Under the pieces are notes generated by a model. The model was given only the letters and a program-made list of their open reading frames with translations. It was not told the DNA's origin and ran no database searches. DNA of 43,570 nt. It comes from a virus. The stretch's first letter is position 1; each line of letters begins with the position of its first letter. Location of the stretch: the IMG/VR virus record IMGVR_UViG_3300030099_002399, positions 1 to 43,570 of that record; one strand, 5' to 3'. Below are positions 5,442 through 28,819 of the stretch, piece by piece. Position numbers and translations under genes: made by a program.

Positions 5442-5469
5442 AAAAAAGGGGGGAGGAAAGCCTCCCCCC
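5442..5469 (-). terminator. Rho-independent terminator after capsid gene
   Basis: On the minus strand GGGGGGAGG (5469-5461) pairs perfectly with CCTCCCCCC (5456-5448) around a CTTT loop, and six Ts follow (5447-5442). It lies 9 bases after the capsid stop, so it probably sets high capsid mRNA levels from the sigma54 promoter at 6991-6975 and reduces read-through to the fibre genes. Confidence 0.9.
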
Positions 5470-5478
5470 ATGTTAGAA

Positions 5479-6888
5479 TTAAGAGGTACGACGACGACGA
5501 AAGATAATTGGTAAACAATGTCTTGCGTCACCGGGAATACCACCGTGAATTGTCTGCGAGATAAACTTCAAGTAATCACCGTAGACGTTCAAGTCCCAAG
5601 ATGTGTCATTAGTTACATCCGTTGTGTCAGCAGTCGGAACCAAGAACTGATCAGTCAAATCAATCTGACCATTCCAGTTCATGCCGTACAACTTCTTCTT
5701 GGAGATGTTCTTACCAGCAAACTCGCGAGGCGGTGGGCCAACGGAGATTGTCTTGAACGCATCTGCACCACACAAGAACGCAACCTCGTTAGAGGCGATG
5801 CTATTGCTAGCTGTTGCGCTAATCTTGGTGTAGTTCGAGTTCGGAACAACCTTGTTACCAGAAACAGCCTGTGGAGCAACAAAGTCGCCACCCGTTGTAG
5901 CAAGATCAGTAAACCGAAGCGGATACGGATCAAACTTGACTGTAATCTTGCCGAACAAGTCACCAGCAAAACCGTCTTTAAGGAAGTCACGACTCGTGGA
6001 AGCAAGTGCTTGACCAGTACCGTGCTTCTTCAAGTCGTCATCCCACAAGAGCGATGCCCAAGCCTCTGTAGAACAAACAAGAACATACTTGCCCTTGATC
6101 ATTTCAGAAGTTTTAGGAACGCCGAACTGACGATCAAACGTCGGAGCTTGTACGTCTTCCTGCAAGACAAGCATAGCTTTATACAAGTCTTTAAGAGTCA
6201 ACGCACCTGCGCGGTTAGCAGATGCAGTCGCACCAATGCTAATTGCACGTCGAAAGATTTGACCTTTCTTCTGCGAAACTGCTGCTGATGCGCCAGAAGT
6301 TGAATCATCATCACCGTCGATTGTCCGGATTTGATCCTGCGTCAACGCGCCAACCGCGGCAGAGTCCTGTAACGTCAGACTGCTGGCGAGATCACCAGCA
6401 CCATCTTGAGCAATGTAAACATCCGGTGTCTGATAGTACATGAGTGTACGAACAAACTGGTTGTTTGCATTCTGAATCTGACGAACAATGTCAGCATGAG
6501 CGTAAGACAACTGATCGCGCCAGAAAGCCTCAAAGCTATTCAAGAAACGAAAACGCGTACTCTCATACCGATGGTAAGAAAGTTTTGCGGACTCATTTCG
6601 TTCGCCAACTTTGTAAATGTCCTTTAACGGTGCATCAGCAAGCACATTCGGTGCAAACGTAGACCGTGAAACGGGACTCGGAGTCGGAGTCAACCCTTGA
6701 AGGGTGTCTCCCATATTAGGTTCCCACTTGATTGAACCGTACATGGAATCATAAACATTCCATTTCGGAAATAGGGCAACCTCGTTTTTAACTAGGTAGA
6801 AATCCAACTTATTAAAGTTGTTGGATGCTGCCGTAGTACCCATTGCTTGTCCAAGAGTACTAGATGGATCAACTGCTGTTACTGCCAT
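5479..6888 (-). CDS. Major capsid protein
   Basis: A 469-aa protein in the canonical place after scaffold and before small head and fibre genes. The N-terminus is MAVTAVDPSSTLGQAMGTTA. It then has many aromatic/charged helices (SFEAFWRDQLSYAHADIVRQ) and a long domain with GDLFGKITVKFDPYPLRF and SVGPPPREFAGK segments, fitting an HK97-type coat protein. Length is normal for that fold. It has its own sigma54-type promoter 75 bases or so upstream of the ATG and a strong terminator just after the stop, as expected for the most abundant virion protein. No Shine-Dalgarno is seen before the ATG (leader ends ATATAGTAAA). The call rests on synteny and size more than on a recognised signature. Confidence 0.8.
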   Translation of the reverse strand: MAVTAVDPSSTLGQAMGTTAASNNFNKLDFYLVKNEVALFPKWNVYDSMYGSIKWEPNMGDTLQGLTPTPSPVSRSTFAPNVLADAPLKDIYKVGERNESAKLSYHRYESTRFRFLNSFEAFWRDQLSYAHADIVRQIQNANNQFVRTLMYYQTPDVYIAQDGAGDLASSLTLQDSAAVGALTQDQIRTIDGDDDSTSGASAAVSQKKGQIFRRAISIGATASANRAGALTLKDLYKAMLVLQEDVQAPTFDRQFGVPKTSEMIKGKYVLVCSTEAWASLLWDDDLKKHGTGQALASTSRDFLKDGFAGDLFGKITVKFDPYPLRFTDLATTGGDFVAPQAVSGNKVVPNSNYTKISATASNSIASNEVAFLCGADAFKTISVGPPPREFAGKNISKKKLYGMNWNGQIDLTDQFLVPTADTTDVTNDTSWDLNVYGDYLKFISQTIHGGIPGDARHCLPIIFRRRRTS

Positions 6889-6912: not shown

Positions 6913-6952
6913 CGTGTGATGCCCTTCACAAGTAGAAGCGTGCCATGCCCTT
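6913..6952 (-). repeat. Direct repeat in capsid mRNA leader
   Basis: On the minus strand AAGGGCATNNCACG occurs twice (6952-6939 with GG, 6926-6913 with CA), spaced 26 bases apart, inside the roughly 75-base leader between the sigma54 promoter and the capsid ATG. It could be a protein-binding or RNA-structure element; no function is known. Confidence 0.5.
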
Positions 6953-6974
6953 GGCGTAGAAGCGTATGTATTCT

Positions 6975-6991
6975 AGCAAACTTCGTGCCAC
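6975..6991 (-). promoter_or_regulatory. Sigma54 promoter for capsid gene
   Basis: The minus strand reads GTGGCACG-AAGT-TTGCT (6991-6975), with the required GG-N10-GC spacing and only one departure from the consensus YTGGCACG-N4-TTGCW. An A/T-rich ATAAAAT stretch precedes it, as at the late promoter. The predicted start is about 6963, giving a leader of about 75 bases before the capsid ATG. It lies in the gap between scaffold and capsid. Confidence 0.85.
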
Positions 6992-8283: not shown

Positions 8284-9949
8284 CTTTCTGGTCGCCTCCT
8301 GAAAGTGCTTGGACTTGTTGTTGTAATTGTTGTAGCTGTTGGGCATACGGTTGTGCTTCTTGGTTTAGTTGTCCTGTTTGTGGGTCTGTGACTAGACTCT
8401 GAATTATTGTCATCATCTGCTGAATCAATTGTGCGCGAGCCGTATCCTCTTGCATCATGTTGATGTATTTTGGTGCTTCGTCAGGGAATAGCATACTCAG
8501 CATATCCTTCATGTAGTCTACTGCAAGTGCGCTATTCTGTTGAATTACCGGCCAAACTTGCAGCATCTTTGACGCTTTCTCCTGCCGCTCTACAACATCG
8601 GTGTCACCTGCTGGCTTCATGTTGTACTTGTGATCGGTAAAGTATTCTAGCGAGATGTTTGGTTCAATTAAGCCGTCAAGAACGCGAGAGTTATATATGT
8701 CAAAACACTTTTCGTAGATGCGTTTGATGGCGATGCTGAATAGCGCAACTTGTGTTGCCGATAACATTTGTGCTTCGGCGGTTGCTGTCTGAATCTCTGT
8801 TGCCGTCTTGCGTGAGTCTTGTCGATTCATCGCAGCATAGTTCATCTGAGATTGCTCCTGTGCATTCTGTGTTACCAATGTTTGTATCGCTGATAACATC
8901 TGTGCATTAGGTGGTGACAGTTGGAATTGCCTGACGTTTGAGTCTATTAGTGCGCCGGGAACAAACTGTACATTTGTTTGCTCGTTGCTTTGATTCGGAT
9001 CATCAGAGTCTTTGGCAAAGTAAAAGTTAGACGCACGACGATGCGCAGTCACAAACGATGACATCATTGAACTGACTGCTTCTTGTGTATGCTTGTCTAG
9101 GAAGGCACGACCAACAGAGTTCTTGATGGTCATGTCCTCCGCTATTGTATAATGGAATACAACGTATGGATATTCTGTCTCGTAGATTTCTCCTTCTGCA
9201 TCTCGCTTGCCCAAAAAGAGGGGACGTGGCTTGCGCAACCAGTCGTTGCATCTAGCTGCGCAAGACCACCCCACTTGAACTATCCCCTTGCTTCTAAACA
9301 TGACCTTTTCGATTTTAAACAAGGATTCCGTCTGCTCGTCTACAGGCTCGCCTACTAAAGCCTCGACTTCCGATTTGCTAAAGTCTCGTGTCTTAACCAT
9401 GTCCAACAGTTGCTCACGAGTAAAGTAATGTCGATGGACTAGCATACCACACGCTTGTATGTCGCGAGTGTCATCTGGAAATGCAATGTCCTCGTAGTTT
9501 ACAGATTCTATTCCGAAATGGCCGGGCTTTGTGTCGTCGAATTCTACTTCTGCAATACAGTAGCCATGCAACTGCATACAGTCTATGACTCGGAATAATG
9601 GTATCTGCCAACCATCGTAACGTGAGCGTTCTGTAAAGTCTCGCTCTAGTGGGCCAGTATTAAACGCTGGGTCTGTCGAGCTTGAGAAGATCGCTGTGCG
9701 TCTTGAGTTTACGATGTATGAAACATACTTGGCTTGTTCGCGACGAATGTTTGTGTCAATGATATGCGTTGGTATGTAAATCTCATCCGGTGCTAGATAG
9801 CCATCGCGACGTTCTAAATCGAGATCGACATTAAGACGGCGTTGCTGACGTTGGTCGTTGGCACGAACACTTTGGACATCACATATACCGACTAACTTGT
9901 GTATGTTAGTTGCGGCTTCTTGATAATTCTTGTAGTTGTTGTATTTCAT
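8249..9949 (-). CDS. Portal protein
   Basis: A 566-aa protein directly after TerL. The N-terminal half carries the mixed alpha/beta wing (DEIYIPTHIIDTNIRREQAK and a GYCIAEVEFDD segment). Residues about 350-420 show the long stem helix region rich in Gln, Asn and Ala (QSQMNYAAMNRQDSRKTATE then IQTATAEAQML), like T7/HMO-type portals where ExxxRxTATE-like motifs precede the stem. The C-terminus is Gln-rich coiled-coil and ends in GGDQKGAGGASPQ. The portal forms the 12-fold DNA entry ring. Start overlaps TerL by 44 bases. Confidence 0.85.
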   Translation of the reverse strand: MKYNNYKNYQEAATNIHKLVGICDVQSVRANDQRQQRRLNVDLDLERRDGYLAPDEIYIPTHIIDTNIRREQAKYVSYIVNSRRTAIFSSSTDPAFNTGPLERDFTERSRYDGWQIPLFRVIDCMQLHGYCIAEVEFDDTKPGHFGIESVNYEDIAFPDDTRDIQACGMLVHRHYFTREQLLDMVKTRDFSKSEVEALVGEPVDEQTESLFKIEKVMFRSKGIVQVGWSCAARCNDWLRKPRPLFLGKRDAEGEIYETEYPYVVFHYTIAEDMTIKNSVGRAFLDKHTQEAVSSMMSSFVTAHRRASNFYFAKDSDDPNQSNEQTNVQFVPGALIDSNVRQFQLSPPNAQMLSAIQTLVTQNAQEQSQMNYAAMNRQDSRKTATEIQTATAEAQMLSATQVALFSIAIKRIYEKCFDIYNSRVLDGLIEPNISLEYFTDHKYNMKPAGDTDVVERQEKASKMLQVWPVIQQNSALAVDYMKDMLSMLFPDEAPKYINMMQEDTARAQLIQQMMTIIQSLVTDPQTGQLNQEAQPYAQQLQQLQQQVQALSGGDQKGAGGASPQTMA

Positions 9950-11408
9950 CTTGTAACCACGGATTCGACCTTACGTTAAAGCCGAATACCGCTCTTTGTC
10001 TGTTTGATGTTAAATTAAATTGTTTTGGTGTAAATTTTTCTGTGCGCTTTTTGCGCAACTTCTTGGGCTTGATACCACGGTAGTCTGCGAACGCAAGTAC
10101 GAAAGCATCTGCTCTGTCAGGCGATACATGACCCTTTGATCGTGCCTGTTTCTTGCTTTCGAGTTGCAGTTTGTTTTGCGGTGTCACCATGAAGTAGCGG
10201 GATGCTAACTGTTTGCGGAGCTTTGATTCCTTGGGAACCATGATTTCTCCATATTCTATTAACTTGCCCACGCTGAACCAAAGTTCTGCGCCACGGTTTA
10301 AGTAGGCTAAATTGTTGTATGGCTTTGCTTGGTTTAAGACGTAGGTGACGTTCCAGTTTGCTTTTAGTTGGTCGAGTATAGGTTTGCCTAAACCTCCTGC
10401 ATCACCGTAGATTACTGACTGTTCGTGATCTAATTTGTACTTTCTGAATAGATGTTCTAGGTGATTTATTAAGGCAACTGTATCGCGAAAGTTAAATGCT
10501 TCGACTGCAAGCGTTTTGTTGCCGTTTCGGATTACTAAGACTTGCTCGTCACCTCCTGCTGATAAATCAAGGCCAGCTACATTGTAGTCTTCTTCTAGGT
10601 GTTCTATTTCGTGCTTGTCCAAGTCTACAAGTTTCTGGTGATTTATTACGACTTGCTCGTCCATACCACCAAACTCAGCAAGTATCATGGACTTGTATAA
10701 AGCAGAGGTTTCTCCATATGAGTCTTTGATTTCATTGATATATTCTTCTGATAGATGGGGGCAGTCAAAGGCTGTGACATGGTATTGATTCCAGTTACCT
10801 CCAGTACACATATTGTAGAAGTGACCGGAAGGTGGGCCGGGACTAGATACGTCTACTCGTTTGGTGAAACCTGTGCAACGAGCCAACGCTGTAAATATAT
10901 CGTCCGGTACTGACTTGGCCTCCGAAACAAATATTGCTAGTTCCCCGCCGGGAACTACCGGATGCCAACCCTCTGCTCTACCGGCTTCATCCGTTACGAA
11001 TAACTCGATTGTTGAGCCATTTAGTAGGTTTGTGTAATGCCGATAATTCATCTTCCAGACTTGTGTACCAAACATCTTGTTAATGGTGTTCATTAGCTGT
11101 TTGATGTACTTGTCTGTTTGGCGATCTAGCTGATTACCGGATGCGGTTGTAACTATCGCAACTGCATTAGCTGATGCCATGCAAGTCCATAAGGCGCAAG
11201 GGGCTATAACAAATTGATCTTTTCCAGAACCATTCGCCGCTCTTACTGCGGCCTTGAATGGTTTACTGGCATCTGATGGCTTGCCGTAATCCTCTAGGAT
11301 TTCACGTTGCCATTTGTGTAGAGAAATGCGTCCCTCCAAGATGTCGTCGTCAATAACGGTCAACATCTCGTAAGGGTCTTTGAACTGTATGTTACCGCTT
11401 TTCTCCAT
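9906..11408 (-). CDS. terL: Terminase large subunit (ATPase-nuclease)
   Basis: A 500-aa DNA-packaging motor. The ATPase part has a Walker A-type ANGSGKD at 58-64 (K63) and a Walker B-like ELAIFVSEAK at 156-165, where the usual Asp before the catalytic Glu is Ser (S162-E163). The nuclease part has a RuvC-like GLDLSAGGDE with D281, YGDAGG with D336 and SPDRADAFVLAF with D431/D434, the three expected acidic positions. Length is normal. It overlaps SNase upstream and portal downstream, fitting a tightly coupled packaging operon with the TerS candidate at 12316. Confidence 0.92.
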   Translation of the reverse strand: MEKSGNIQFKDPYEMLTVIDDDILEGRISLHKWQREILEDYGKPSDASKPFKAAVRAANGSGKDQFVIAPCALWTCMASANAVAIVTTASGNQLDRQTDKYIKQLMNTINKMFGTQVWKMNYRHYTNLLNGSTIELFVTDEAGRAEGWHPVVPGGELAIFVSEAKSVPDDIFTALARCTGFTKRVDVSSPGPPSGHFYNMCTGGNWNQYHVTAFDCPHLSEEYINEIKDSYGETSALYKSMILAEFGGMDEQVVINHQKLVDLDKHEIEHLEEDYNVAGLDLSAGGDEQVLVIRNGNKTLAVEAFNFRDTVALINHLEHLFRKYKLDHEQSVIYGDAGGLGKPILDQLKANWNVTYVLNQAKPYNNLAYLNRGAELWFSVGKLIEYGEIMVPKESKLRKQLASRYFMVTPQNKLQLESKKQARSKGHVSPDRADAFVLAFADYRGIKPKKLRKKRTEKFTPKQFNLTSNRQRAVFGFNVRSNPWLQDEIQQLQELSRSRN

Positions 11409-11963: not shown

Positions 11964-12316
11964 ACTTCTATGGCTTTATTCATAACCTCTCGCGCTTTCT
12001 CTAGTCGGAGGTTAAAATCTGATATATTCACGTTGGTTGTACCATGAGGTGTCTTGAGTCCCTGCCTCTGGTCAAGAACGTAGAAAGCAGCTTTCAACGC
12101 AGGAGCATTCGCTGTTCCTGTTTGTAGCGCAACACGAACTACGTCTAGTGCCGTGTCTTCTAGTTCCTCAAATTTTTTGGCTAATGGAGTATCTTTAGCT
12201 TTCTTGTTTCCTGCTAGTATTAACTCGACGTTCTCACGCTCATACCCAAGGTCTTCTACAATTTCTTCAACTGAGAAACCTTCCTTCGCTAATCTAACTA
12301 CTTGATGACTACTCAT
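11960..12316 (-). CDS. Terminase small subunit candidate
   Basis: A 118-aa protein whose N-terminus (VVRLAKEGFSVEEIVEDLGY, residues 6-25) is a helix-turn-helix of the type used by TerS proteins. It is followed by helices (DTALDVVRVALQTGTANAPA) that could form the oligomerisation core and a basic C-terminal helix. It lies two genes upstream of TerL in the same operon. TerS recognises the packaging site and loads TerL; the call rests on the HTH, size and position. Confidence 0.65.
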   Translation of the reverse strand: MSSHQVVRLAKEGFSVEEIVEDLGYERENVELILAGNKKAKDTPLAKKFEELEDTALDVVRVALQTGTANAPALKAAFYVLDQRQGLKTPHGTTNVNISDFNLRLEKAREVMNKAIEV

Positions 12317-15300
12317 GGACTAGGTGGATCATCTAAATCAATTGTTTCGCCGTAAACCGGAGCGTCAAGATCAGAGGCTTCCATTATACCTTGTATAGTG
12401 TTTGGTCGTCGCTTACTTGAGCCAGAACCTTCGGCTGTTTTGTCAGGCCCATATTCTAGTGCGCCGCCTTTATATTTTTCTAAAAATTCTGCGTCATCCT
12501 CGCTGATGTATGCGTAGCCTTTAATCTTACCTTCTTTATCCTTTTGAGGAACAATCCTGCCATCACCACCTTTATGTAAAATTTGTAGACCTCCTTCTGT
12601 CTTGGCAATTTTATCAGCAAGTTCTACTTGCGCATCTGCTTCCTCCTGCGTCATCAACCCCCATCTAACAAGTCGATCTCGGTCAGTTTTTAGATAACCT
12701 TTAAGTGCGGTTAGAATTTTCTCTGCTCTTTCTTGCTCTTGTTTTTCTAATTCTTTTCTGCGTTCCTCTTGCTCTTTATCGAATTTCTTCCATTCTTCAA
12801 ATTCTTGTTCAGCTTTCTCGCTACTTAATCTACCTTCTTCAGATTCTTTTATTATATTTTCTGCAAATGCATCAGCAAGTTTAGACCGAAAATCTTGTGA
12901 ACTTTGTTCGTAATTAGCTTTGCTTCTGTCTAATTGATCTTCTTGTTGTTGTTTTGCTTTTGTGTAGTAATCATTAAACATTTCAAGCGATTCTTCTGCT
13001 GAATATCCATTAGCATAAAACTGCATCGGTGACGGAATCTTTACCGGCTGTATATTTTGTAATTGAAACTCTAAATCTTGTATTTCAAATTCTTTGTCGG
13101 TTGCTTCTGCGTATAACCCCATAGCGTTTAACTGCATTATTTCTGCGTTTACATCGGCAATACGGTTTTGAATCTGGCTGTATTGAAGCGGGTCTATGAA
13201 CTCAAAGTCTTGTGTTCCATAGTTGAACCAATTCATAGATTGGTTATTAAGTTTACCGTCGCGAAGTTTTTCAAGTTCGCCTTCTTCAAAACTTGGAAAT
13301 CCTTGACTTTGTATTTCAGCTTGTCGCTGATCGGCTCTTGAAAGTCTGGCAAGTTCTGCTAGTGCATCTGCGTCTAGTGTTGTGCCTTTTTGTTCTTTTT
13401 GCTTTTCGGGTTTTGTCGGTTTAACTATTTGGCCTTCTTCACCTTTAAGTGTTTTTGTTACTGGTAATTCAGCTAAATCTAATTCTGCCGTTTCTATGTT
13501 TGATGTATCTATTTCAGTTAAACCTTTTTCTAAATCTTTAGCGTCTCTAATTGTTATTCCTCTTGGTGCAGTTTTTTCGTCTGTGCCTCCTTGTATTGTT
13601 ATTGATTTAGGATCAGCAACTTCTGGTTGTATTGCTGGCGTTTCTAGTCGAGGTGTTTCTGCAAATTCTATTTCGTCTGTTTTGCCTGTCGGACTTACTA
13701 CTATTGGGTCTATCGTTTGAGCTTTAACTGGTTGCTTGTAGCGTAAGTCTAGGTCTGCTGTTTCTATTTTTTGTGGATCAATATCGCGAACAATATCTTC
13801 CGCTTCCTCGATTGTTATTCCTTTAGGAATTTCTGTTATTGTTCCATCTGGTGTTATGGTAATAGATTTTGCATCAGTTTGCTCTATGCCCGGTTCTGGT
13901 ACTGTTAATTGAGGATTCTCAGCAAAAGTTTCTTGAGGTGTTGATACATTTGTAATTGGCGCAACTGTAATGGGTCTTGCTGTCTCAGAGTATGTTGGCC
14001 GAAGTTCGCCTATCGTTTCTATCTCAGGTCGAGTGGGTGCTGTTGTTATGTCTCCTACATCTCGAATTGTGATGCCTTGTGGTGCTTCTACTGTTGTTGT
14101 GTCAGTTGTCGGCGTAACTGTAAGTGCTTCGCGAGTTCCGACTTCTGGTCGTGTGCTTATTGTTTGTGAGACAGGTGTATCACCAGTTGGTCTTGTTGTT
14201 CCTGGTACACCTCTGCCTATGTTTCGGACGCTTATTGGTCTAGCTGTTGCTGCTTCTACCTCTCGGACAAAAGGTTCTGGTTCTGTCGCGGATGGGTATT
14301 GTTTGCGCTCTGTGGGTGTTTCGGGTTCTGGTATTGTTATTGTGCCATCGGGGTCGGGCATTGAAATTACGGCTTTTGTACCCATAGTAGGACGACGAGG
14401 GGCTTTCATAAACTCGTCGATGTTTCCTAGCTTGTCCTTTATCCGTGTATCTTTGATCTTGGGTAAGACTTGGCCGACTGTGTTGTTGTAGGTTTTTTGT
14501 AGAGTTTTGCCGAGTACCCATGTTGTGCCATGTATGAAGTCTTGTATTGGGTTTCCTGCCATTTCAGGACTTTTGGCGAACATATTGTTCATGCCTGACA
14601 TAATGTCGTCCGAGGCTGTAACTAACACGGGGATTGCGCCACCGATTGCACCATACTGGCTGATTAAAGCTGCCGTGTTTAATGCAGCAAGTAGCTGAAG
14701 GTCGCCATATTCTTGTGTGCGTATATTTTCTTCGTTCTTGAGTATGCGAGCAAAATTGGCCAGCATCTTGCCGTATTTCGGGCCAACAGGAGCGCGTCCT
14801 GTCGTTTCTGACGGTATGCCTTTAGTCTCCCATAACTTAAATTGTTCTTCAGTTAAGCCATCTGACCAATCTTTGAACTTTTTGAGTGTGTCAAATGTTT
14901 GACGTTCATCTTTGCGTAATGGGCCTTCTGCATCATAACGTGTTTTACCAAAAAGTATTCTTGCTGGCTTTTCTGTTGCAGAGAATATGTCTTGTAATGT
15001 TTGTGCCGCTTTATCTCCTAGTGTTGGCTTGAATATTCCTGTTGTATTTTTTGGAGTTGCTTTTGCTGGAGGTAAATCTGGTTTCGGTATTCCTCTTGGC
15101 GTAATCGAAATTCTTGGACGATCCTGCTTTGGTTGCGGTGTCCTTGGTGTTATTTGCTCTGGTCTAAACCCAGCAGGAACTTGTATTGGCTCAAAATTGC
15201 GGTCTGCGCTGATTAGGTCGCCTTCTAGGAAGTCAGGGTCATCTTTAGGGTCGTAGCCGGTATAGCCAATATCACTGGTGTCCCATCTGATTTCCGGTAT

Positions 15301-15642
15301 TGGTATGTCAATACGCTGTTCTGGTAAATCAATTGTGTAGTTTGGTGTATTAAAAATTGGCTCCTCATCAACTACAACTTTGGGTGGCGGGATTTGTGTT
15401 GGAGGTTCTGTAGGCGGTTCTGTTGTGGGCTTTGTTGCGGGTGTGACGAGTTGACCCCAAAACTCTTGGTCACCGAATTGGGCGCGAGCAGGTGGTAATC
15501 CAGTTGTCTCAGCCCGGAATTGGGCAAAACCGCCGGGATTGTACTTTATGAGTGGGCCTTCAGCTACTTTGCCGAATGCGTCAACGGTGTCAGGAGTTGG
15601 CCCTTCAGCAAACTCTTGAACAATGTTAGACTCGGTAGGCAT
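12313..15642 (-). CDS. Very large repeat protein (1109 aa), first gene of the late operon
   Basis: I do not recognise a family. Residues 60-200 are Pro/Thr rich. Residues 330-350 hold a hydrophobic Gly/Ala segment (AALISQYGAIGGAIPVLVTA). Residues about 440-760 carry an 85-87-residue repeat marked by GITI at 523, 608 and 695, each followed by an acidic helix and then IETADLDL or related text. Residues 800-1020 are coiled coil (EEWKKFDKEQEERRKELEKQ). The C-terminus is acidic. It lies directly downstream of the late sigma54 promoter and overlaps the TerS-like gene by 4 bases. A virion, ejection or host-interaction role is possible; the large size at the front of a packaging operon is unusual. 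Confidence 0.7.
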   Translation of the reverse strand: MPTESNIVQEFAEGPTPDTVDAFGKVAEGPLIKYNPGGFAQFRAETTGLPPARAQFGDQEFWGQLVTPATKPTTEPPTEPPTQIPPPKVVVDEEPIFNTPNYTIDLPEQRIDIPIPEIRWDTSDIGYTGYDPKDDPDFLEGDLISADRNFEPIQVPAGFRPEQITPRTPQPKQDRPRISITPRGIPKPDLPPAKATPKNTTGIFKPTLGDKAAQTLQDIFSATEKPARILFGKTRYDAEGPLRKDERQTFDTLKKFKDWSDGLTEEQFKLWETKGIPSETTGRAPVGPKYGKMLANFARILKNEENIRTQEYGDLQLLAALNTAALISQYGAIGGAIPVLVTASDDIMSGMNNMFAKSPEMAGNPIQDFIHGTTWVLGKTLQKTYNNTVGQVLPKIKDTRIKDKLGNIDEFMKAPRRPTMGTKAVISMPDPDGTITIPEPETPTERKQYPSATEPEPFVREVEAATARPISVRNIGRGVPGTTRPTGDTPVSQTISTRPEVGTREALTVTPTTDTTTVEAPQGITIRDVGDITTAPTRPEIETIGELRPTYSETARPITVAPITNVSTPQETFAENPQLTVPEPGIEQTDAKSITITPDGTITEIPKGITIEEAEDIVRDIDPQKIETADLDLRYKQPVKAQTIDPIVVSPTGKTDEIEFAETPRLETPAIQPEVADPKSITIQGGTDEKTAPRGITIRDAKDLEKGLTEIDTSNIETAELDLAELPVTKTLKGEEGQIVKPTKPEKQKEQKGTTLDADALAELARLSRADQRQAEIQSQGFPSFEEGELEKLRDGKLNNQSMNWFNYGTQDFEFIDPLQYSQIQNRIADVNAEIMQLNAMGLYAEATDKEFEIQDLEFQLQNIQPVKIPSPMQFYANGYSAEESLEMFNDYYTKAKQQQEDQLDRSKANYEQSSQDFRSKLADAFAENIIKESEEGRLSSEKAEQEFEEWKKFDKEQEERRKELEKQEQERAEKILTALKGYLKTDRDRLVRWGLMTQEEADAQVELADKIAKTEGGLQILHKGGDGRIVPQKDKEGKIKGYAYISEDDAEFLEKYKGGALEYGPDKTAEGSGSSKRRPNTIQGIMEASDLDAPVYGETIDLDDPPSP

Positions 15643-15732
15643 CGAATAGGTTCGGGTTGAAGAAGAGGGCGTACTGAATTAGGGGCGTTGATTTGCAGAT
15701 TTCGATTGATCGTTCACACATAGGACGATTGA

Positions 15733-15749
15733 AGCAGAGTTCGTGCCAG
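15733..15749 (-). promoter_or_regulatory. Sigma54 promoter for the late operon
   Basis: The minus strand reads CTGGCACG-AACT-CTGCT (15749-15733), a full -24 element and a -12 element with one change (CTGC for TTGC), with exact GG-N10-GC spacing. ATAAAAT lies just upstream as at the capsid promoter. The predicted start near 15721 gives a leader of about 78 bases to the ATG at 15642. It is the only promoter I can see for the whole 15-kb and onward late region. Confidence 0.82.
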
Positions 15750-15841
15750 AATTTTATAAGATAAAGTATGTTTTGTCTCATAGTGTTTTTTGGGTCATTT
15801 TTTCAGAGAGGGTTATAGTCCAGTAGCGGCACGACTTCTGG

Positions 15842-15869: not shown

Positions 15870-15878
15870 TCTAGGCAC

Positions 15879-15905
15879 AAAAAAAGCCCCTCAACTGAGG
15901 GACTT
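15879..15905 (-). terminator. Terminator of the minus-strand early gene
   Basis: On the minus strand AAGTCCCTC-AGTT-GAGGGGCTT folds into a stem (core GAGGG/CCCTC, with flanking AAG/CTT pairs), followed by seven Ts (15885-15879). It lies about 50 bases after the stop of the 75-aa gene and separates that early transcript from the late operon. Confidence 0.85.
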
Positions 15906-15954
15906 GATTATTACAATTATTATAAAGCCCAGCAAAAAGCATAGGCAGAATTTA

Positions 15955-16182: not shown

Positions 16183-16190
16183 AACATTAT

Positions 16191-16237: not shown

Positions 16238-16260
16238 CCAATTTATTTTTTATTTTTGTG

Positions 16261-16304: not shown

Positions 16305-16308
16305 TATT

Positions 16309-22069: not shown

Positions 22070-22086
22070 TTGGCACGAAGGTTGCT
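22070..22086 (+). promoter_or_regulatory. Consensus sigma54 promoter for the replication block
   Basis: TTGGCACG (22070-22077), four bases AAGG, TTGCT (22082-22086): an exact match to YTGGCACG-N4-TTGCW, with an AAAAG flank also fitting the extended consensus. GG and GC are 10 bases apart. The predicted start near 22097 leaves about 18 bases before the ATG at 22115. The upstream ACCTACCCCCCA (22053-22064) recurs in the origin-like element. Confidence 0.92.
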
Positions 22087-22114
22087 TATATATTAACCGT
22101 CATATTTTTTGAAA

Positions 22115-22516
22115 ATGACCTATAAAAAAGAACAGTTTATCGACGGGGATTTCAAGGGTTTCGGGTTTTATACTCCGGTCTTTGAGTCTATTGATGAAGT
22201 TGTTGAGGCTTACGGCGAGAAAACAACAATCGCCCTTATAAATCAACAAGCTCAGTTACGCATTCGTGCCAAGGTTAAGAATGGTTTACCAAAGAACCTA
22301 CCGACATCAGACTTGGAGAGATTCAAGGATGAATTATACCGTGAGAAACCGGATGGAATTCTTTTCTCGCAGGATGAAGCTGCAAAGTGGACTCCTTCAC
22401 TCAAAGAACTTTCAGCCAAGAAACTCTTCTTGCTGGCACAAGCAGAACTAGCAAAGGGTAATAAAGAAACTGCTGCTAAATACATGGATCAATGCAAATC
22501 GAAAACCTTACAATAG
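22115..22516 (+). CDS. First gene of the sigma54-driven middle operon (hypothetical, 133 aa)
   Basis: Starts MTYKKEQFIDGDFKGFGFYT at the ATG at 22115, preferred to a TTG six bases before it. No Shine-Dalgarno; the leader is short and AU-rich. The protein is mixed alpha/beta with a helical C-terminus (KELSAKKLFLLAQAELAKGN then KETAAKYMDQC) resembling a helical hairpin. No family recognised. It overlaps the next gene by 25 bases. Because it is directly behind the sigma54 promoter, it should be the first middle-phase product. Confidence 0.7.
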   Translation: MTYKKEQFIDGDFKGFGFYTPVFESIDEVVEAYGEKTTIALINQQAQLRIRAKVKNGLPKNLPTSDLERFKDELYREKPDGILFSQDEAAKWTPSLKELSAKKLFLLAQAELAKGNKETAAKYMDQCKSKTLQ

Positions 22517-23001
22517 AAAAAGCAAAACCGAATCGGTCTAGTTATAGTCCGAACTCAGCTAAACAAGTACAACCAATCCTAGATCGTTTAATGGAAACAG
22601 GTCAGGATGTTTACGTCAACGCCCAGCAAACCGGATACACAGCAAATACTTTGTACGTCAAGTTCAACGATGGATTTAAGTTTATCCTAGATAACTTTGA
22701 TGAAGACAAGTATTCAATACTCCGAACTAAAGTAGCTATTCGCAAAACTGATGACGGCATTATTATCTACTTCAAGGAAACTATAAACAATTCCCTTAAA
22801 TCTAAAGCAATAGACTATGAGTTTAATGATTCAATGACATGGAAAAACGATCTTGAAACTTGGTACAAGACTGCCAAGGACACAGAACTCTTTGAACGTA
22901 ACGTCTCTGTCTCCGAAGCTGATCGTGAATTCGTATACAATCTAGTCAATGAAGATTCAGAAGTAGATATTACCGACACTTCTGTTCGCGTAATGAAATG
23001 A
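22492..23001 (+). CDS. Middle operon hypothetical protein (169 aa)
   Basis: Starts MQIENLTIEKAKPNRSSYSP. The N-terminal half contains a VQPILDRLMETGQDVYVNAQ segment followed by short strands (TLYVKFNDGFKFILDNF, DDGIIIYFKETI). The C-terminal half is acidic and helical. No recognised motifs. Its TGA overlaps the ATG of the 28-aa membrane peptide (ATGA). Confidence 0.65.
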   Translation: MQIENLTIEKAKPNRSSYSPNSAKQVQPILDRLMETGQDVYVNAQQTGYTANTLYVKFNDGFKFILDNFDEDKYSILRTKVAIRKTDDGIIIYFKETINNSLKSKAIDYEFNDSMTWKNDLETWYKTAKDTELFERNVSVSEADREFVYNLVNEDSEVDITDTSVRVMK

Positions 23002-23084
23002 TTTACTTCGACATCTTATGCGCACTCGGACTGCTCTACTTTATATTCGCTACAATCTGCGCAATTCTATCGGGACTTGAATGA
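22998..23084 (+). CDS. Tiny membrane peptide (28 aa)
   Basis: A 28-aa frame coupled on both sides (ATGA with 23001 and ATGA with the next gene). It consists almost entirely of one hydrophobic helix (ILCALGLLYFIFATICAILS) with two cysteines. It is too regular and too tightly coupled to be chance overlap, though no homologue is known to me. It may anchor a replication or nucleotide-metabolism component to the membrane or act on the host envelope. Confidence 0.5.
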   Translation: MIYFDILCALGLLYFIFATICAILSGLE

Positions 23085-23245
23085 CAATAGAACAACTGCT
23101 GGAGATTTCAGTCGAGGAACTAGAGGCAATGCCTGACTCAAAGTTGCAAGAATACCTAGCACCTTACTTAAAAATCTCAAGACCGGACGAGTTAGAAGAA
23201 CTAAAAGTACAAAAGAAAACCAGAGGAAAGATTAAACTTGATTAA
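23081..23245 (+). CDS. Small acidic/basic hypothetical protein (54 aa)
   Basis: A 54-aa protein: an acidic helical half (MTIEQLLEISVEELEAMPDS) and a lysine-rich C-terminus (VQKKTRGKIKLD). It overlaps the membrane peptide (ATGA) and the Cas4-like gene (TTG start 8 bases before the stop). Such small proteins are common in front of phage nucleases; no function known. Confidence 0.55.
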   Translation: MTIEQLLEISVEELEAMPDSKLQEYLAPYLKISRPDELEELKVQKKTRGKIKLD

Positions 23246-24143
23246 ACTAGAAAAAGCCGAAGACCGCTACATTCTTCGCATAGACGCATCTGCCTACAAA
23301 GAATCTGCCTGTTCCCTCAAGTTCTACTACACAACTGTAAGAGGTTTGCGTAGTAGTTACATGAATCACAAGATGGAATACGGCACGGCGTACCACAAGG
23401 CACTAGAGACTTACTACGCAACTGGCGATAAAGCCAAGTCGCTGAACGAGGCACTAGAGCATTTCTCTAATCCAGACATCCATGTTCCTGAGAATGACTG
23501 GCGTACTCAAGGGCATCTTGCCAACTGTATCACGCAATACTTTGACCACTACTCGGATGTAGACGGACTCAAGGTAGAGAAACACGAAGGCGAAGCACTA
23601 CTCGAAATGAAGTTTGCTTATCCATTCTACACGAACGGATTCATCGACATCATTCTTTGCGGAACAATCGACTTCATTGGTACATACTTTGGCCAGAATG
23701 TTATCTGCGATCACAAGTCAACGGCAGTCACAACAATTGACCGTTACTTGGCTTCATACGAAATGTCTACGCAACTCATGTTGTATACCTTGGTGATGCG
23801 CAAGCTGTTCCCTGACAGGAATTATCAAGCACTCATCAACGGCATTTTCTTGTCTCGCTCTGGTCGCAACAAGTTTCAGCGAAGCGCAATCCTAGATTAC
23901 TCGGATCAGAAGCTCGGATACTTTGAGCAGCATCTTACTGAGACTCTCGTCAACTTTGTTGAGCTACTCACCAAGAACATCAAGGAAGATAAACAATACT
24001 TCCTGCCTAACTTTAACTGCTGCGAAACCAAATTCGGAATGTGCAAGTTCGCTAAAATCTGCAACGCAGGAGACTTTGGCGAAGCTGTAATCGAGAACGA
24101 TTTCTACACTAAAAAATATAACCCACTAAACTTCAATGAATAG
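23238..24143 (+). CDS. RecB/Cas4-like PD-(D/E)XK exonuclease with Fe-S cysteines
   Basis: A 301-aa nuclease with a TTG start. H53 (GTAYHKALE), D145 (CGTIDFIG), D158-H-K160 (VICDHKST) and Q179 (YEMSTQLMLY) give the H...D...DxK...Q order of the RecB-family PD-(D/E)XK fold. One cysteine near the N-terminus (C25) and three near the C-terminus (C262, C269, C275) fit the 4Fe-4S cluster of Cas4/AddB-type enzymes. These are 5'-to-3' or dual exonucleases that make single strands for recombination. It is followed by a DUF1599-like gene, a Sak4-like ATPase and an ssDNA-binding-like protein, so it probably works in phage recombination or replication rather than CRISPR adaptation; no CRISPR array is present. 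Confidence 0.88.
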   Translation: MIKLEKAEDRYILRIDASAYKESACSLKFYYTTVRGLRSSYMNHKMEYGTAYHKALETYYATGDKAKSLNEALEHFSNPDIHVPENDWRTQGHLANCITQYFDHYSDVDGLKVEKHEGEALLEMKFAYPFYTNGFIDIILCGTIDFIGTYFGQNVICDHKSTAVTTIDRYLASYEMSTQLMLYTLVMRKLFPDRNYQALINGIFLSRSGRNKFQRSAILDYSDQKLGYFEQHLTETLVNFVELLTKNIKEDKQYFLPNFNCCETKFGMCKFAKICNAGDFGEAVIENDFYTKKYNPLNFNE

Positions 24144-24531
24144 TTTCGAGAGAGAAACCAAAATGACCATGAACGCAATGGACGGTGAACAACCAAAAGT
24201 CAACATCGACATTTCGCTAATTACAATTGCTGGCAATCAAGCATTTCTAAACGCACTCGATTGTGTTAAGTTGCTTGATGCGAAACAACTGGACTACGGG
24301 CCATTGAACATTTCATCCGAGGGACTACTCGGATTGAAGACTCGGCTCGTCGATAAAATTTTCAGGCTCAAGAATCTACTTGAGAGCAATCGCGAACCGA
24401 ACAACGAATCACTTGCTGATACTTTTCAAGACATAGTGAACTATGGATTGATCGGCCAAATGCTTCTCGACAACACTTGGCCAACAACAGAACAAACCAA
24501 ACCTCGCAACATCGAGATTACAATTATATGA
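24136..24531 (+). CDS. DUF1599-like (nucleotide-modification-associated) protein
   Basis: A 131-aa protein. Residues 45-115 follow the DUF1599/Nmad1 pattern: LLDAKQLDYGPLNI, then LKTRLVDKIFRLKNL, then NESLADTFQDIVNYGLIGQM. The DYG, RLxDKIxRLxNL and ESLxDTxxDIxNY motifs match closely. This family has a MazG-like helical look and is associated with modified-nucleotide metabolism in phages, but no biochemical role is shown here. The N-terminal 30 residues are polar. It overlaps the nuclease gene by 8 bases and the ATPase gene by 4. Confidence 0.75.
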   Translation: MNSFERETKMTMNAMDGEQPKVNIDISLITIAGNQAFLNALDCVKLLDAKQLDYGPLNISSEGLLGLKTRLVDKIFRLKNLLESNREPNNESLADTFQDIVNYGLIGQMLLDNTWPTTEQTKPRNIEITII

Positions 24532-25172
24532 ACAAACCTATCATCGGAATAGTTGGGGGTAGTGGCACGGGCAAATCAACATCCCTGCGCAATCTACCGG
24601 CAGACAAGACAACCATCATCGACCTAGAACGCAAAGGCTTCCCATTCAAAGAAGCGAAGTCGTTCGACATCATATCGGTAGACAAGATACCTGATGTTAA
24701 TCCTGCCATCGAAAAGGCAATCAAGAACTCAGATATTGTTGTCTTCGAATCCTTCACCAAATACTGCGAACAACTATCCAGTTACGCCAGTAAGATGTAC
24801 AAGGGTTACGATGTCTGGTCGTACTACAACAAACAGATTCGTGACCTACTCGACAAGGTGAAAAATGAAAAAGCCATCTTCATATTCACAGCAATTGACG
24901 AGATCGTGCGCGTCACTCAGCCAACTGGCGGTGAGTACAATACTCGACGCATCAAGGTGCAAGGCAAGCAACACGAAGGTTGCATCGAGAAGGAACTACT
25001 GATGGTTCTATTTACAGAAGTTCGTAAGGGAGAGAACTCAATCGACTACTGTTTCCAGACAAACTCTGATGGAGTGACATCTGCGAAGACTCCTCTTGGT
25101 ATGTTTGATGATCTCTACATACCCAACGATCTCAACGAAGTCATCAAGTCTTGTAACGAGTATTACGAATAA
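24528..25172 (+). CDS. Sak4-like RecA-fold ATPase (AAA_24-type)
   Basis: A 214-aa protein with Walker A GGSGTGKST at 9-17, a DLERKGFPFKEAKSFD segment, and a Walker B-like VVFESFTKYCEQLSSYASKM near residue 70, the order of AAA_24/Sak4-type phage ATPases. Sak4 proteins are single-strand annealing/strand-exchange factors that cooperate with an SSB and an exonuclease, both of which flank this gene. Start ATG overlaps the upstream stop (ATGA). The role in recombination is from family and context; the strand-exchange activity itself cannot be read from the sequence. Confidence 0.85.
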   Translation: MNKPIIGIVGGSGTGKSTSLRNLPADKTTIIDLERKGFPFKEAKSFDIISVDKIPDVNPAIEKAIKNSDIVVFESFTKYCEQLSSYASKMYKGYDVWSYYNKQIRDLLDKVKNEKAIFIFTAIDEIVRVTQPTGGEYNTRRIKVQGKQHEGCIEKELLMVLFTEVRKGENSIDYCFQTNSDGVTSAKTPLGMFDDLYIPNDLNEVIKSCNEYYE

Positions 25173-25174
25173 GA

Positions 25175-25300
25175 ATGAATTTCAGACGGGTACATACTGC
25201 TATTAAGATGCAGACAGGTTTAAGGGTTGCTGGTTTTCCTAAGTTCGCCAGTATACGTCCCTGCATTGATCGCCCGTCGATACTTTCTCACACGAAGTGA
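25175..25300 (+). CDS. Possible small basic protein (41 aa) in the gap before the SSB-like gene
   Basis: The 143-base gap after the Sak4-like gene is open from ATG 25175 to TGA 25300 and reads MNFRRVHTAIKMQTGLRVAG, then basic and Pro-containing text. It lacks a Shine-Dalgarno and a recognisable family. The same bases contain a weak GG-N10-GC (25217-25230, -12 TTGCT but a poor -24) and a CTCAC/GTGAG hairpin at 25287-25301 in front of the next start. Either a small gene or a regulatory leader is possible; I lean slightly to the leader. Confidence 0.35.
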   Translation: MNFRRVHTAIKMQTGLRVAGFPKFASIRPCIDRPSILSHTK

Positions 25301-25315
25301 GGATAACTGGTAAAA

Positions 25316-25819
25316 ATGCCTACTATTAACCTAAATGATGTAAAGGAGAACGCTCGTCCGTTTCTGCCTTCGAACAACTACACTATTCGTGTAGCCGATA
25401 CCGAAACCCGTCAGTCACAGAGCGGCAACCCGATGGTTGTCCTGACTTGGGAAATCGTTGCACCTGAGTCTATCGAAGATCCAGACTTGGGAAATGTACG
25501 GATTGCTGGTTTGCAATTCCGTGAGTACCTCGTGTTTATCGAGAAGATGGCATTGCGCATCAAGCGTAATCATCGTGTTCTCGATTTGCCTTTCGAGTTG
25601 AACTGTTCCGATGAGAGTGACCCTTGGGGTACTGTCGAGCCGGATGGTTCTATCTACAAGGGCAAGGCTGCCTATGCAACCATCAAGACCGAGAAGGTTG
25701 TAAGGAAGAATGCGGAAGGTGAAGCAATGGTAGATCCGTCTACCGGCGACCCGATCACCTTCAACTCGTATTCAGTTGGGGAACTGATCAGTAAAGCACC
25801 CGAACACGATCTTGCGTAA
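25316..25819 (+). CDS. ssDNA-binding-like protein (DUF669-type)
   Basis: A 167-aa, acidic, beta-rich protein starting MPTINLNDVKENARPFLPSN and continuing YTIRVADTETRQSQSGNPMV VLTWEIV, which resembles the DUF669/SSB-like proteins found beside Sak4-type ATPases. The C-terminus ends GELISKAPEHDLA. The strand order and the partner genes suggest binding of single-stranded DNA during replication and recombination; no aromatic signature is distinctive enough to be certain. A strong terminator follows 6 bases after the stop, so it is probably abundant. Confidence 0.68.
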   Translation: MPTINLNDVKENARPFLPSNNYTIRVADTETRQSQSGNPMVVLTWEIVAPESIEDPDLGNVRIAGLQFREYLVFIEKMALRIKRNHRVLDLPFELNCSDESDPWGTVEPDGSIYKGKAAYATIKTEKVVRKNAEGEAMVDPSTGDPITFNSYSVGELISKAPEHDLA

Positions 25820-25825
25820 CCACAT

Positions 25826-25853
25826 GGGGGAGGGTAAAACCTCCCCCTTTTTT
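25826..25853 (+). terminator. Terminator after SSB-like gene
   Basis: GGGGGAGG (25826-25833) and CCTCCCCC (25840-25847) pair perfectly around GTAAAA, followed by TTTTTT (25848-25853). The next ATG is 2 bases beyond, the same arrangement as at 16934, 18132 and 5442. Confidence 0.92.
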
Positions 25854-25855
25854 CC

Positions 25856-26089
25856 ATGAAAGTCTACGACCTAGAAGTAAACAAGGAAGACATTGATAGA
25901 AAATTTAAGAAATTTGCGCGACGGCATGGACTTAAACCCAGCGAAGTTGGCCATCACGAAAGTCGCACAATGGATTACAAAGTAGATTTTCCGCACAAGA
26001 AGCGGCGAACTGCTGAAGTAAGAAAAAGATACGGAACACCTGACTACGTTAAAAGAAAATATTGTGAAAGAATTAACAACCATAATTGA
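25856..26089 (+). CDS. Small basic hypothetical protein (77 aa)
   Basis: Starts MKVYDLEVNKEDIDRKFKKF directly after the terminator U-run, with no Shine-Dalgarno. A RRHGLKPSEVGHHESRTMDY segment and a Lys/Arg-rich C-terminus suggest nucleic-acid binding. No family recognised. It overlaps the next gene by 26 bases. Confidence 0.6.
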   Translation: MKVYDLEVNKEDIDRKFKKFARRHGLKPSEVGHHESRTMDYKVDFPHKKRRTAEVRKRYGTPDYVKRKYCERINNHN

Positions 26090-26336
26090 CGACATTCGTA
26101 CTGACGACAATGCACAAGCATTAGAGCGGCTACGAATCAAGACAACTGAAATGCAAGCCGAGGCTTTAGCAGACGGTTATCTATCGGGAATCCATGATGC
26201 AATCCTAATGCTACAAGATTACATCAAACAGGATTCAATCAAGGACAAGCTCAAACAAGAAGCACTCAAGGCGCGTGAGGCACAAACCAAGTCTAAAGTA
26301 CAGCGGTCTAACGGTAATTCTCGAAAGTCCAAGTAG
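26064..26336 (+). CDS. Helical hypothetical protein (90 aa) before DNA polymerase
   Basis: A GTG start (26064) reading MKELTTIIDDIRTDDNAQAL, entirely helical with heptad spacing (DYIKQDSIKDKLKQEALKAR). It overlaps the polymerase start by 62 bases, the longest overlap in the operon; one of the two starts may be shifted. No family recognised. Confidence 0.55.
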   Translation: MKELTTIIDDIRTDDNAQALERLRIKTTEMQAEALADGYLSGIHDAILMLQDYIKQDSIKDKLKQEALKAREAQTKSKVQRSNGNSRKSK

Positions 26337-28641
26337 GTTCGACAAGGGTAGTCTAATCTCAGGCTACGCTGGTCATCTATTCCAAAACGCCCTTGGTATT
26401 CCGAGACAATCCTGCGACATCAGATTGCTCAATACCTTGGGCGAAGGTTTTCTCCCCGACACAAAAGTAATTTTGTTGTTGGGCGAGAAGGCTCTTAAAA
26501 CTTTCAAGAACTCAAAACTCGGTGGTCAACGTGGCTGTCCTTGGATTGTACATGGACGCACCTACATTGCTACGTTCGCTCCGCAAAATGCCATTGATCG
26601 TAAGGCATACTTCAATCCGCTTGCGCACGAAACCGAGTACGATTACGACGAAACCGAGAGACACGGCAAAACCAAACGATCCAACTGGCGATACTGGATG
26701 CAACGGGATGTATCAAAAGCTGCTGGTTATCTCAAGACTCCACCTAATCCTATCGAAGGTGAGAGTGACATCTATCCCAAAGCATCCGAAGTTATAGATT
26801 TACTAACAAACACTAAAGGCAAGGATATGTTCTTTGACATCGAGACAAATCCTAGCCTTGAGATGACTTGTTTCGGATTCTCGTTTGGCGGCAAAGGTTA
26901 CTGCGTACCAATGCTGCGAATAAACTACTACCATTACGACGAGACTCACCAAATTTTACGCGCACTTGCTGTTGCATTCAGAGACAACACAGTAGTCATA
27001 CACAACGCACTCTTTGACTTGTTTGTCCTTGTGTATCGCTATGGGATTCCTGCGCCTCGCAAAGTCTACGATACAATGCTGGCGCATCACAGGCTGTTCC
27101 CCGAAATAGAGAAGTCTCTCGGACATTGCATATCACTTTACACAGATCAACCTTATCACAAGAACGAAGGTTGTTACAATCCGCAGAACGCAGGAGAGTT
27201 TGATCGACTCTATGAATACAACATTAAAGATGTACTCACGATGGCGTTGATTAAACCATCCATTGACGAACTTGCAGTTACGATGGGCGCAACTAAATCC
27301 ATTGAACAGGCTAACTCAATGGTAGTGCCGTACCTTACTGCGATGTGTCAGGGACTCCGCATCAATACAGCAGAGAAGAAGAAGATTCTGATGCGCAACG
27401 AGCGACACAAGAATCAACTTCGTAGAATGCTGAGTCTCCTTGTCGGTCACGATCTAAATCCAAACAGCCCGAAGCAAGTGTCTGTCTATTTGTATGACCG
27501 AATGAAGCTCAAGAAACCGGCGAAGGATTTAACAAACGAGAAGACTCTGCTTCAACATCGACTCAAATATGATCTTCCAGCGATCTCAATAATTCTCAAG
27601 TACCGATCAATCGCCAAGGAGTCAGGCCAACTCAAGTACAATCCTTATGATGGTCTATACAACGTACCAATGGTTGATCGAATCACGACTTCGTACAATT
27701 TGGCTGGTACATCTACATTCAGATTGGCAAGTCGCAAGCTACTCGGTCGCTGGGGTACGAACATCCAGAATATACCAAAGAAGTTGCGGCATCTGTTCAT
27801 CGCTGACGAAGGCAAGGTTCTTGTGCAAGCTGATCAAGCAGGAGCAGAGGCGATGATCGTTGGCTACTTATGTACACAAGGCAACTTCCGCACACTATTC
27901 CTTGAAGGCATCAAGTCTCATGTGTTTGTTGCCATGCGCTTGTTTCCCGATGTCTGGTCTGCTGAACTTGGTAGAAGCATCGACGAATTCTGCGAAGCCC
28001 CCATCCATGAACTCAAGAACATCAAGGGTTGGGATGAACTCAACAATGTAATTAAGGATAGCGACAATTGGACTGCTGATAAACGCTATTACTTCATGGC
28101 CAAGATGGTATGCCATGCATCGAACTATGGTATGAAGGCTCCGACATTTCGCACGAATATGTTGCAGAAGTCTCAGGGCGCAATCGCTCTTGAGTCAAAG
28201 GAGGCTAAACGATTTCTCAATACCTATCACAAGTTGTTCCCTGAGATAAACCAATGGCACAACGAGACTGTCGAGCGACTCAAGGAAACGCGAACGCTCA
28301 AGAACCTGTTTGGCTATCCCCGATACTTCACCGGCATCATTGATGAATCAATGTACAAGGAAGCGTATGCATTCGTGCCTCAATCGACTGTCGGATGTAT
28401 TACGAACCTAGCATTTGTCGAGCTACAGAACCGACAAGATTTGCAAGAGTTAGGAGTTGACGTACTCCAGAACAACCATGATAGTGTGCTGCTTCAATGC
28501 GCACCTGAGCATTCAGAATTCGTTGCCCAAGAAGCAATGAAACATCTGAATCGTGAAATGATTTCTCCCCGTGGCGAACGATTCTCCATGAGATCAGAAG
28601 CAATGATCGGGGATAACTGGAAGGAAATGATAGATGTCTAA
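26275..28641 (+). CDS. Family A DNA polymerase with degenerate UDG-like N-terminus
   Basis: A 788-aa replicative polymerase. Residues about 13-110 resemble a family 4-type uracil-DNA glycosylase fold (VILESPSRFDKGSL, GYAGHLFQNAL, ILLLGEKALK, YIATFAPQNAI), but the usual His of the HPxxxxR motif is Ala, so activity is doubtful. The 3'-5' exonuclease follows: DIE at 188-190, HNALFD with D248, YNIKD with D319. Polymerase motif A is ADQAGAEA with D520, motif B AKMVCHASNYG with K610 and H614 at the position equivalent to E. coli F762, and motif C NNHDSVLLQ with D736. All catalytic acids are present. GTG start; ends inside the next small gene. Confidence 0.95.
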   Translation: MRHKPSLKYSGLTVILESPSRFDKGSLISGYAGHLFQNALGIPRQSCDIRLLNTLGEGFLPDTKVILLLGEKALKTFKNSKLGGQRGCPWIVHGRTYIATFAPQNAIDRKAYFNPLAHETEYDYDETERHGKTKRSNWRYWMQRDVSKAAGYLKTPPNPIEGESDIYPKASEVIDLLTNTKGKDMFFDIETNPSLEMTCFGFSFGGKGYCVPMLRINYYHYDETHQILRALAVAFRDNTVVIHNALFDLFVLVYRYGIPAPRKVYDTMLAHHRLFPEIEKSLGHCISLYTDQPYHKNEGCYNPQNAGEFDRLYEYNIKDVLTMALIKPSIDELAVTMGATKSIEQANSMVVPYLTAMCQGLRINTAEKKKILMRNERHKNQLRRMLSLLVGHDLNPNSPKQVSVYLYDRMKLKKPAKDLTNEKTLLQHRLKYDLPAISIILKYRSIAKESGQLKYNPYDGLYNVPMVDRITTSYNLAGTSTFRLASRKLLGRWGTNIQNIPKKLRHLFIADEGKVLVQADQAGAEAMIVGYLCTQGNFRTLFLEGIKSHVFVAMRLFPDVWSAELGRSIDEFCEAPIHELKNIKGWDELNNVIKDSDNWTADKRYYFMAKMVCHASNYGMKAPTFRTNMLQKSQGAIALESKEAKRFLNTYHKLFPEINQWHNETVERLKETRTLKNLFGYPRYFTGIIDESMYKEAYAFVPQSTVGCITNLAFVELQNRQDLQELGVDVLQNNHDSVLLQCAPEHSEFVAQEAMKHLNREMISPRGERFSMRSEAMIGDNWKEMIDV

Positions 28642-28819
28642 ACCAACAATAAGCTACAACGTGGGAGATACTGATGTAAGTGTCTCAATTGATAACTTCT
28701 TCGATGGAGATGAAAACCAACCTATACTATTCATCACGGTAAACGGGACGCTACATCCTGCTTTAACCTTTGAGCAGTATTCAATAATCGCAAAACTAAT
28801 AGAAACACTTGATGACTAA
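28634..28819 (+). CDS. Small beta-type hypothetical protein (61 aa)
   Basis: Starts MSKPTISYNVGDTDVSVSID at an ATG 8 bases before the polymerase stop. Short and beta-rich (PILFITVNGTLHPALTF) with a C-terminal helix. It overlaps the ATPase gene by 8 bases. No family recognised. Confidence 0.55.
   Translation: MSKPTISYNVGDTDVSVSIDNFFDGDENQPILFITVNGTLHPALTFEQYSIIAKLIETLDD

Follow-up and report, generated by a model that had tools for sequence, protein, structure and literature searches.

The question raised by this locus is how about 29 kb of late genes on the minus strand of a virus are switched on. The DNA analysed (the window) comprises the 43,570 nucleotides of IMG/VR record IMGVR_UViG_3300030099_002399, in which a preliminary description had noted a sigma54 promoter at the head of the late genes. 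This element (P2; CTGGCACG-AACT-CTGCT, 15733..15749, minus strand) was followed up using pattern scans, matrix scans and comparison with related phages. The minus-strand letters of positions 15749-15733 read CTGGCACGAACTCTGCT, confirming the site, its strand, its orientation and its exact GG-N10-GC spacing. P2 has the GG at -24 and the GC at -12, exactly 10 bp apart, that mark a sigma54 promoter, and differs from the consensus YTGGCACG-N4-TTGCW by a single mismatch, with a C replacing the first T of TTGC. The reading with the best support is that of a predicted sigma54 promoter in front of the virion genes, and P2 is very probably a true sigma54 (RpoN) promoter belonging, with two others, to a sigma54 circuit encoded by the phage.

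Exactly three matches to the pattern TGGCACG-N5-TGC are present in the window, at 6976-6990 (minus strand; P3), 15734-15748 (minus strand; P2) and 22071-22085 (plus strand; P1), and all three sites are intergenic and correctly oriented. For ten fixed bases, 0.083 matches are expected on both strands of 43.6 kb, and the recount thus agrees with the earlier figure of about 0.08 expected and three seen; the reversed-pattern control gave 0 matches in the window. Using a matrix derived from 29 published Salmonella intergenic sites (PMC3844500, Table 3), which may not suit the true host, P1-P3 were the top three matches in the window (21.3, 20.9 and 16.0), with P2 the weakest of the three and equal to the training-set minimum. 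The next match (14.5) is intragenic and recurs only in one near-identical contig. The preliminary description had named such a scan as the point at which its claim could fail, and no intragenic match was equal to or better than the three sites. Shuffled windows contained 0.24 matches scoring at least 16 per window, and three such matches in 1/200 shuffles. P2 alone is thus not significant, while the trio is, and the earlier rarity argument stands for the three sites together and not for the 15.7-kb site by itself. A second matrix, constructed from the sites of relatives only and excluding both the window and the record G007, placed the same three sites first (20.9, 18.9 and 17.4; next match 10.8), and three such scores were obtained in 0/300 shuffles.

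The transcription start predicted for P2 from established sigma54 geometry, 12 nt past the C of the -12 element, is 15722 (minus strand). The preliminary description had put the distance between P2 and the first late gene at 91 bases. This does not hold, as a conserved, unannotated 31-codon microprotein ORF (MCERSIEICKSTPLIQYALFFNPNLFDAYRV; 15626..15721, minus strand) comes between, the ATG of which lies at the predicted +2. The microprotein is conserved in the near clade with a C-x-x-T-P-L core, and its ATG is found 1-5 nt past the predicted +1 in 11/12 near relatives, while short ORFs begin 0-11 nt past P2 in several far relatives. Given an ATG at or near the predicted +1, the late message is predicted to have little or no leader. 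The end of the micro-ORF is overlapped by the first large late gene (12313..15642, minus strand), the 1109-aa product of which has no family match in Pfam and PHROG scans. The terminase large subunit (9906..11408, minus strand) is encoded further along the late block, as is an SU10-adaptor-like protein with a weak match below the Pfam cut-off. In G007, the two ends of the window adjoin in the same orientation, approximately 1.1 kb apart, and the minus-strand regions from 15.7 to 0 kb and from 43.6 to 30.4 kb can thus be read as one late block of 29-30 kb, in agreement with the extent proposed earlier. Among the selected window genes that were scanned against Pfam and PHROG, none matched an RNA polymerase or a sigma factor. 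Upstream of P2 lie a conserved element (TCTGAAAAAATGACC; 15793..15807, minus strand), present approximately 45 bp away in one copy per phage, and an intrinsic-terminator-like hairpin (15884..15905, minus strand), which separates P2 from a small upstream minus-strand gene and would insulate it from read-through.

P1 (TGGCACGAAGGTTGCTTA; 22071..22088, plus strand) starts 22 bp past the activator gene discussed below and precedes the replication and recombination genes (22115..30050, plus strand), which include a PD-(D/E)XK exonuclease, a Sak4-like annealing protein, an SSB-like protein, DNA polymerase A and a primase/helicase-like protein. This linkage recurs in all of the assembled activator-bearing records (31/31, with DNA polymerases 60-98 % identical and representing 17 activator clusters at 90 % identity), where P1 starts at most 42 bp from the activator stop or overlaps it by one base. 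Lying downstream of the activator gene, P1 would not allow the activator to drive its own synthesis.

P3 (TGGCACGAAGTTTGCTAG; 6973..6990, minus strand) lies within the late block, which therefore has a second promoter-like element, contrary to the earlier claim that P2 was the only one. It stands in front of a putative major capsid gene (5479..6888, minus strand; 469 aa), an assignment which is based on a fold search with a model of low confidence (pLDDT 56.7), all PDB matches of which at E<=0.001 are phage capsid proteins. Relatives of this protein were found in neither PHROG, Pfam nor the 50,697 INPHARED records, and from the last of these the phage family seems to be uncultured. The P3 leader contains two small hairpins, each with AAGGGCAT (6919..6952, minus strand), which recur at this position in G012, G021, G025, G033, G029, G035 and G038, and also in G044, G073, G059, G070, G071 and G056. 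Their stems vary among the phages (GCC/GGC, GGT/ACC, GTG/CAC and GCG/CGC) with complementarity kept. The leader RNA does not fold more stably than shuffled versions (z=0.88), so the case for the twin hairpins comes from conservation and not from energy, and an Rfam scan of the window, these hairpins included, returned no RNA family; they are possibly a translational operator. Approximately 10 bp past the putative capsid stop there is a strong intrinsic-terminator-like hairpin (5448..5469, minus strand), which is kept in the near clade (G012, G021, G025 and others). The capsid gene would thus form its own unit, as in T7, where phi10, gene 10 and T-phi are served by the phage's own single-subunit polymerase. 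The window and near clade share with T7 an extra late promoter before the capsid gene and a terminator after it, but differ from it in that the promoters predicted here are of the sigma54 type.

A DNA polymerase search of IMG/VR identified 77 loci with 56-98 % identity, mostly metagenome contigs and some of them fragmentary. P2 and P3 recur at homologous places, at the head of the late genes and before the capsid homologue, respectively, in phages with 60-89 % identical polymerases. The GG and GC of P2 are invariant, with exact spacing, in 9/9 divergent phages whose polymerases are only approximately 60 % identical. The motif columns of P2 have a mean conservation of 0.93 against 0.44-0.51 in the flanks; for P2 and P3 together the TGGCACG and TGC columns reach 0.93-0.96, against 0.44-0.57 in the flanks and 0.58-0.60 in the spacer. 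Conservation of the motif with divergence of flanks and spacer argues for selection on the element rather than shared recent descent. The P2 of G021 and G051, with AGC at -12, has a score of 13.5. A wider search with the activator recovered far relatives of 35-56 kb that have the whole gene plan in common, with 33-52 % identity in the polymerase, 25-47 % in the capsid and 32-54 % in the terminase. In all of the phages examined (22/22), the 450 bp upstream of the capsid homologue have a sigma54 element as their best site, with P3-type sites scoring at least 14.6 in 20/22 (a shuffled window attains 14.5 at a frequency of 0.0024); the P3 of G068 is weak (10.4). P2-like sites occur upstream of the terminase in most far relatives, while G059 and G068 have no P2 site scoring at least 13. 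The same arrangement of activator and three predicted promoters thus appears to be kept throughout a large uncultured virus family. One contig of this family, JAKLES010000002.1, belongs to the Deltaproteobacteria MAG RA.bin139, which has RpoN; this is the one piece of support for a host that supplies sigma54, although binning is no proof of a host.

The gene preceding P1 (21341..22048, plus strand) encodes a predicted 235-aa sigma54 activator consisting of an AAA+ domain only, with the motifs GESGTGKE, GSFTGA, LFLDEIGE, FRLDLYHR and GNYREL. It matches Pfam Sigma54_activat (PF00158) at E=5.6e-54, as well as PHROG 7998, which is labelled 'unknown function'. Its nearest solved proteins by sequence are the AAA+ domains of FleQ, NtrC1, NifA and PspF, and a Foldseek search with its AlphaFold2 model (pLDDT 84.8) returned the same structures (FleQ, NtrC1 and PspF AAA+; TM 0.75-0.82). 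It is encoded in 34/47 records examined, including every long one, the remaining records being fragments. Among 23 aligned activators, with 41-99 % identity to that of the window, PF00158 is present in 23/23, and little or no variation is seen in Walker A, the L1 loop, Walker B, the arginine-finger stretch or sensor II (GNYRE), with the loop being GSFTGA in the window and GAFTGA or GSYTGA in relatives. The protein thus has the AAA+ sigma54-interaction domain with Walker A/B and GAFTGA-type loop of a bacterial enhancer-binding protein (bEBP). A C-terminal helix-turn-helix (HTH) and an N-terminal regulatory domain are usual in bEBPs but not universal. None of the 23 activators matches any HTH family at E<=0.1, with the C-terminal end being reached approximately 19-34 residues beyond the start of the GNYRE motif, and none has a family match to an N-terminal regulatory domain, Walker A starting approximately 30-75 residues from the N-terminus. 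In the activator tree the bacterial and phage sequences separate, with weakly supported deep forks and an arbitrary root. Together with the retention of P2 at the late-gene head of diverged phages, a phage-encoded activator supports the earlier proposal that the sigma54 circuit extends to virion genes. The picture given by the preliminary description is widened to three predicted promoters, a clade-wide activator with only an AAA+ domain, a first late ORF that would be nearly leaderless and a separate promoter for the putative capsid gene.

Several other explanations of the three sites can be weighed against this evidence. Chance matches in a 43.6-kb sequence might be suspected where P2 alone is not significant and where matches to the pattern with two mismatches occur at chance frequency. 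Three perfect sites are nevertheless far above expectation, their three scores with the relatives-only matrix were not matched as a trio by any shuffle, and they are kept at the same places in diverged phages; this conservation is taken to exclude chance, which retains next to no credibility. The late genes might also be transcribed mainly from a sigma70-type promoter at the upstream edge of P2 (15779-15751; GAGACA-17-TAAAAT, matching 9 of 12 hexamer positions) or by read-through, making the sigma54 site secondary. Such hexamer pairs are found at or below chance frequency (15 against 20.6 expected), the AT-rich -10-like stretch is absent from G033, G029 and G035 while their sigma54 element is intact, and the terminator-like hairpin upstream of P2 speaks against read-through, which makes this explanation very unlikely.

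A further reading accepts the sigma54 promoters but has host activators of the nutrient, flagellar or envelope-stress type acting alongside the phage protein or in its place, in which case host physiology would time the late genes. Any active bEBP nearby can in principle open E-sigma54 promoters, a conserved, unique element is present approximately 45 bp upstream of P2, and TAGAAGAT repeats precede all three promoters in the subclade of G033, G029 and G073. The activator gene is, on the other hand, found in most of the records and tightly linked to P1, and no upstream motif beyond chance is common to P2 and either P1 or P3 in the window, which makes this reading, in either form, improbable. 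Alternatively, the AAA+ protein could interfere with sigma54 regulation in the host as a decoy or inhibitor, being a captured NtrC-like domain by which E-sigma54 is blocked or misdirected, with the phage sites titrating sigma54. While a free AAA+ domain would be expected to act on host sigma54 promoters also, as does DctD250 (PMC3844500), the phage protein retains all of its ATPase, L1-loop and sensor motifs, and the sites stand at the heads of operons, a few bases before start codons, and do not form decoy arrays, so that a decoy role is highly improbable.

Under the preferred reading, that of sigma54 promoters opened by the phage's own activator, the early plus-strand region would presumably be read by the host's main RNA polymerase (sigma70), giving rise to a minimal bEBP-type ATPase, the AAA+ domain alone. 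Host E-sigma54 would already be bound to P1, P2 and P3 as an inactive closed complex. Being restricted to the AAA+ domain, like DctD250, the activator is expected to work from solution, and the lack of an upstream motif shared by P2 with P1 or P3 fits an activator that acts without an enhancer. Remodelling of sigma54 by this ATPase would open the promoters, with P1 giving expression of the replication and recombination genes, P2 that of approximately 29 kb of virion genes, with the leaderless micro-ORF first, and P3 that of the putative capsid. As the promoters would need the phage ATPase, middle and late genes are predicted to be silent until the activator appears. It is likely that this sigma54 programme defines a large uncultured family of tailed phages, in which an AAA+ activator with neither sensor nor DNA-binding domain would be the sole switch for both replication and virion genes, and that ATP-gated promoter opening represents an undescribed class of viral transcription control.

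The phage late switches known to us employ sigma70 activators, phage sigma factors, antitermination or phage polymerases. With Mu C, Ogr of phage P2, T4 MotA and gp55/gp45, and lambda Q, an early phage product turns the host RNA polymerase towards promoters or genes used later. These rely on sigma70, a phage sigma factor or antitermination, whereas host sigma54 and ATP-driven opening are proposed here. Promoters of E-sigma54 are tightly off until an ATPase arrives. Among bacterial proteins, FleT is the only bEBP known to lack both the regulatory and the DNA-binding domain (PMC7175178), while FlgR and CtcC are group 5 bEBPs without a DNA-binding domain (PMC7175178, PMC7482065). Like the phage protein, all three have a sigma54-activating AAA+ domain with a GAFTGA-type loop and no HTH of their own, and FleT resembles it further in the absence of both accessory domains. 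They differ in being bacterial genes with bacterial regulons, whereas the predicted targets of the phage protein are viral genes; FlgR and CtcC, furthermore, have a receiver domain under kinase control, whereas the phage protein has no sensory domain. DctD250, a truncated form of DctD in which the AAA+ domain is constitutively active, opens many sigma54 promoters and needs neither enhancer nor signal (PMC3844500). It is likewise an AAA+ domain only and of nearly the same size (approximately 250 aa against 235 aa), but it is a laboratory construct, whereas the phage version is natural and conserved family-wide. The open-access literature, in which a subscription or preprint report could be missed, contained no description of phage promoters being driven by a sigma54 activator that a phage encodes. 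The parts, a phage-encoded late activator and an AAA+-only bEBP, are of known kinds; what appears to be new is that they serve as the late switch of a virus. If correct, this would show the use of sigma54 to a virus, its promoters staying tightly off before the ATPase is made, and would restrict the hosts to rpoN-bearing bacteria, whose nitrogen, flagellar and envelope regulons could be disturbed by infection. It would also provide biochemistry with a natural minimal enhancer-independent sigma54 activator, and the promoter grammar would allow the operons of many uncultured phages to be read straight from sequence.

Some further features of the window and its relatives were observed. The gut phage MT121960, which encodes a PF00158 protein, was rejected as a relative, having a single scattered matrix match. 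JAKLES010000002.1 encodes an activator and has a sigma54 site in front of the g22109 homologue, and its polymerase match is interrupted by approximately 2.3 kb, with the break falling between query residues 449 and 469. The window (755-1140) and G033 (1359-1744), the polymerases of which are only approximately 62 % identical, share a 386-bp stretch with 93 % identity, and its protein is 91 % identical in G073 (near 8071); this looks like a recent horizontal exchange. The TAGAAGAT repeat is present in 12-13 copies per record (approximately one expected) in G033, G029 and G073, some located immediately before each of the three sigma54 promoters and others in the early region, and looks like the site of a second regulator in this subclade. 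Strong terminator-like hairpins occur between the small early plus-strand genes of the window (16433-16454, 16913-16928, 17194-17211 and 18111-18128, plus strand), and the region 12000-25000 contains 33 terminator-like sites, against 10.6 expected.
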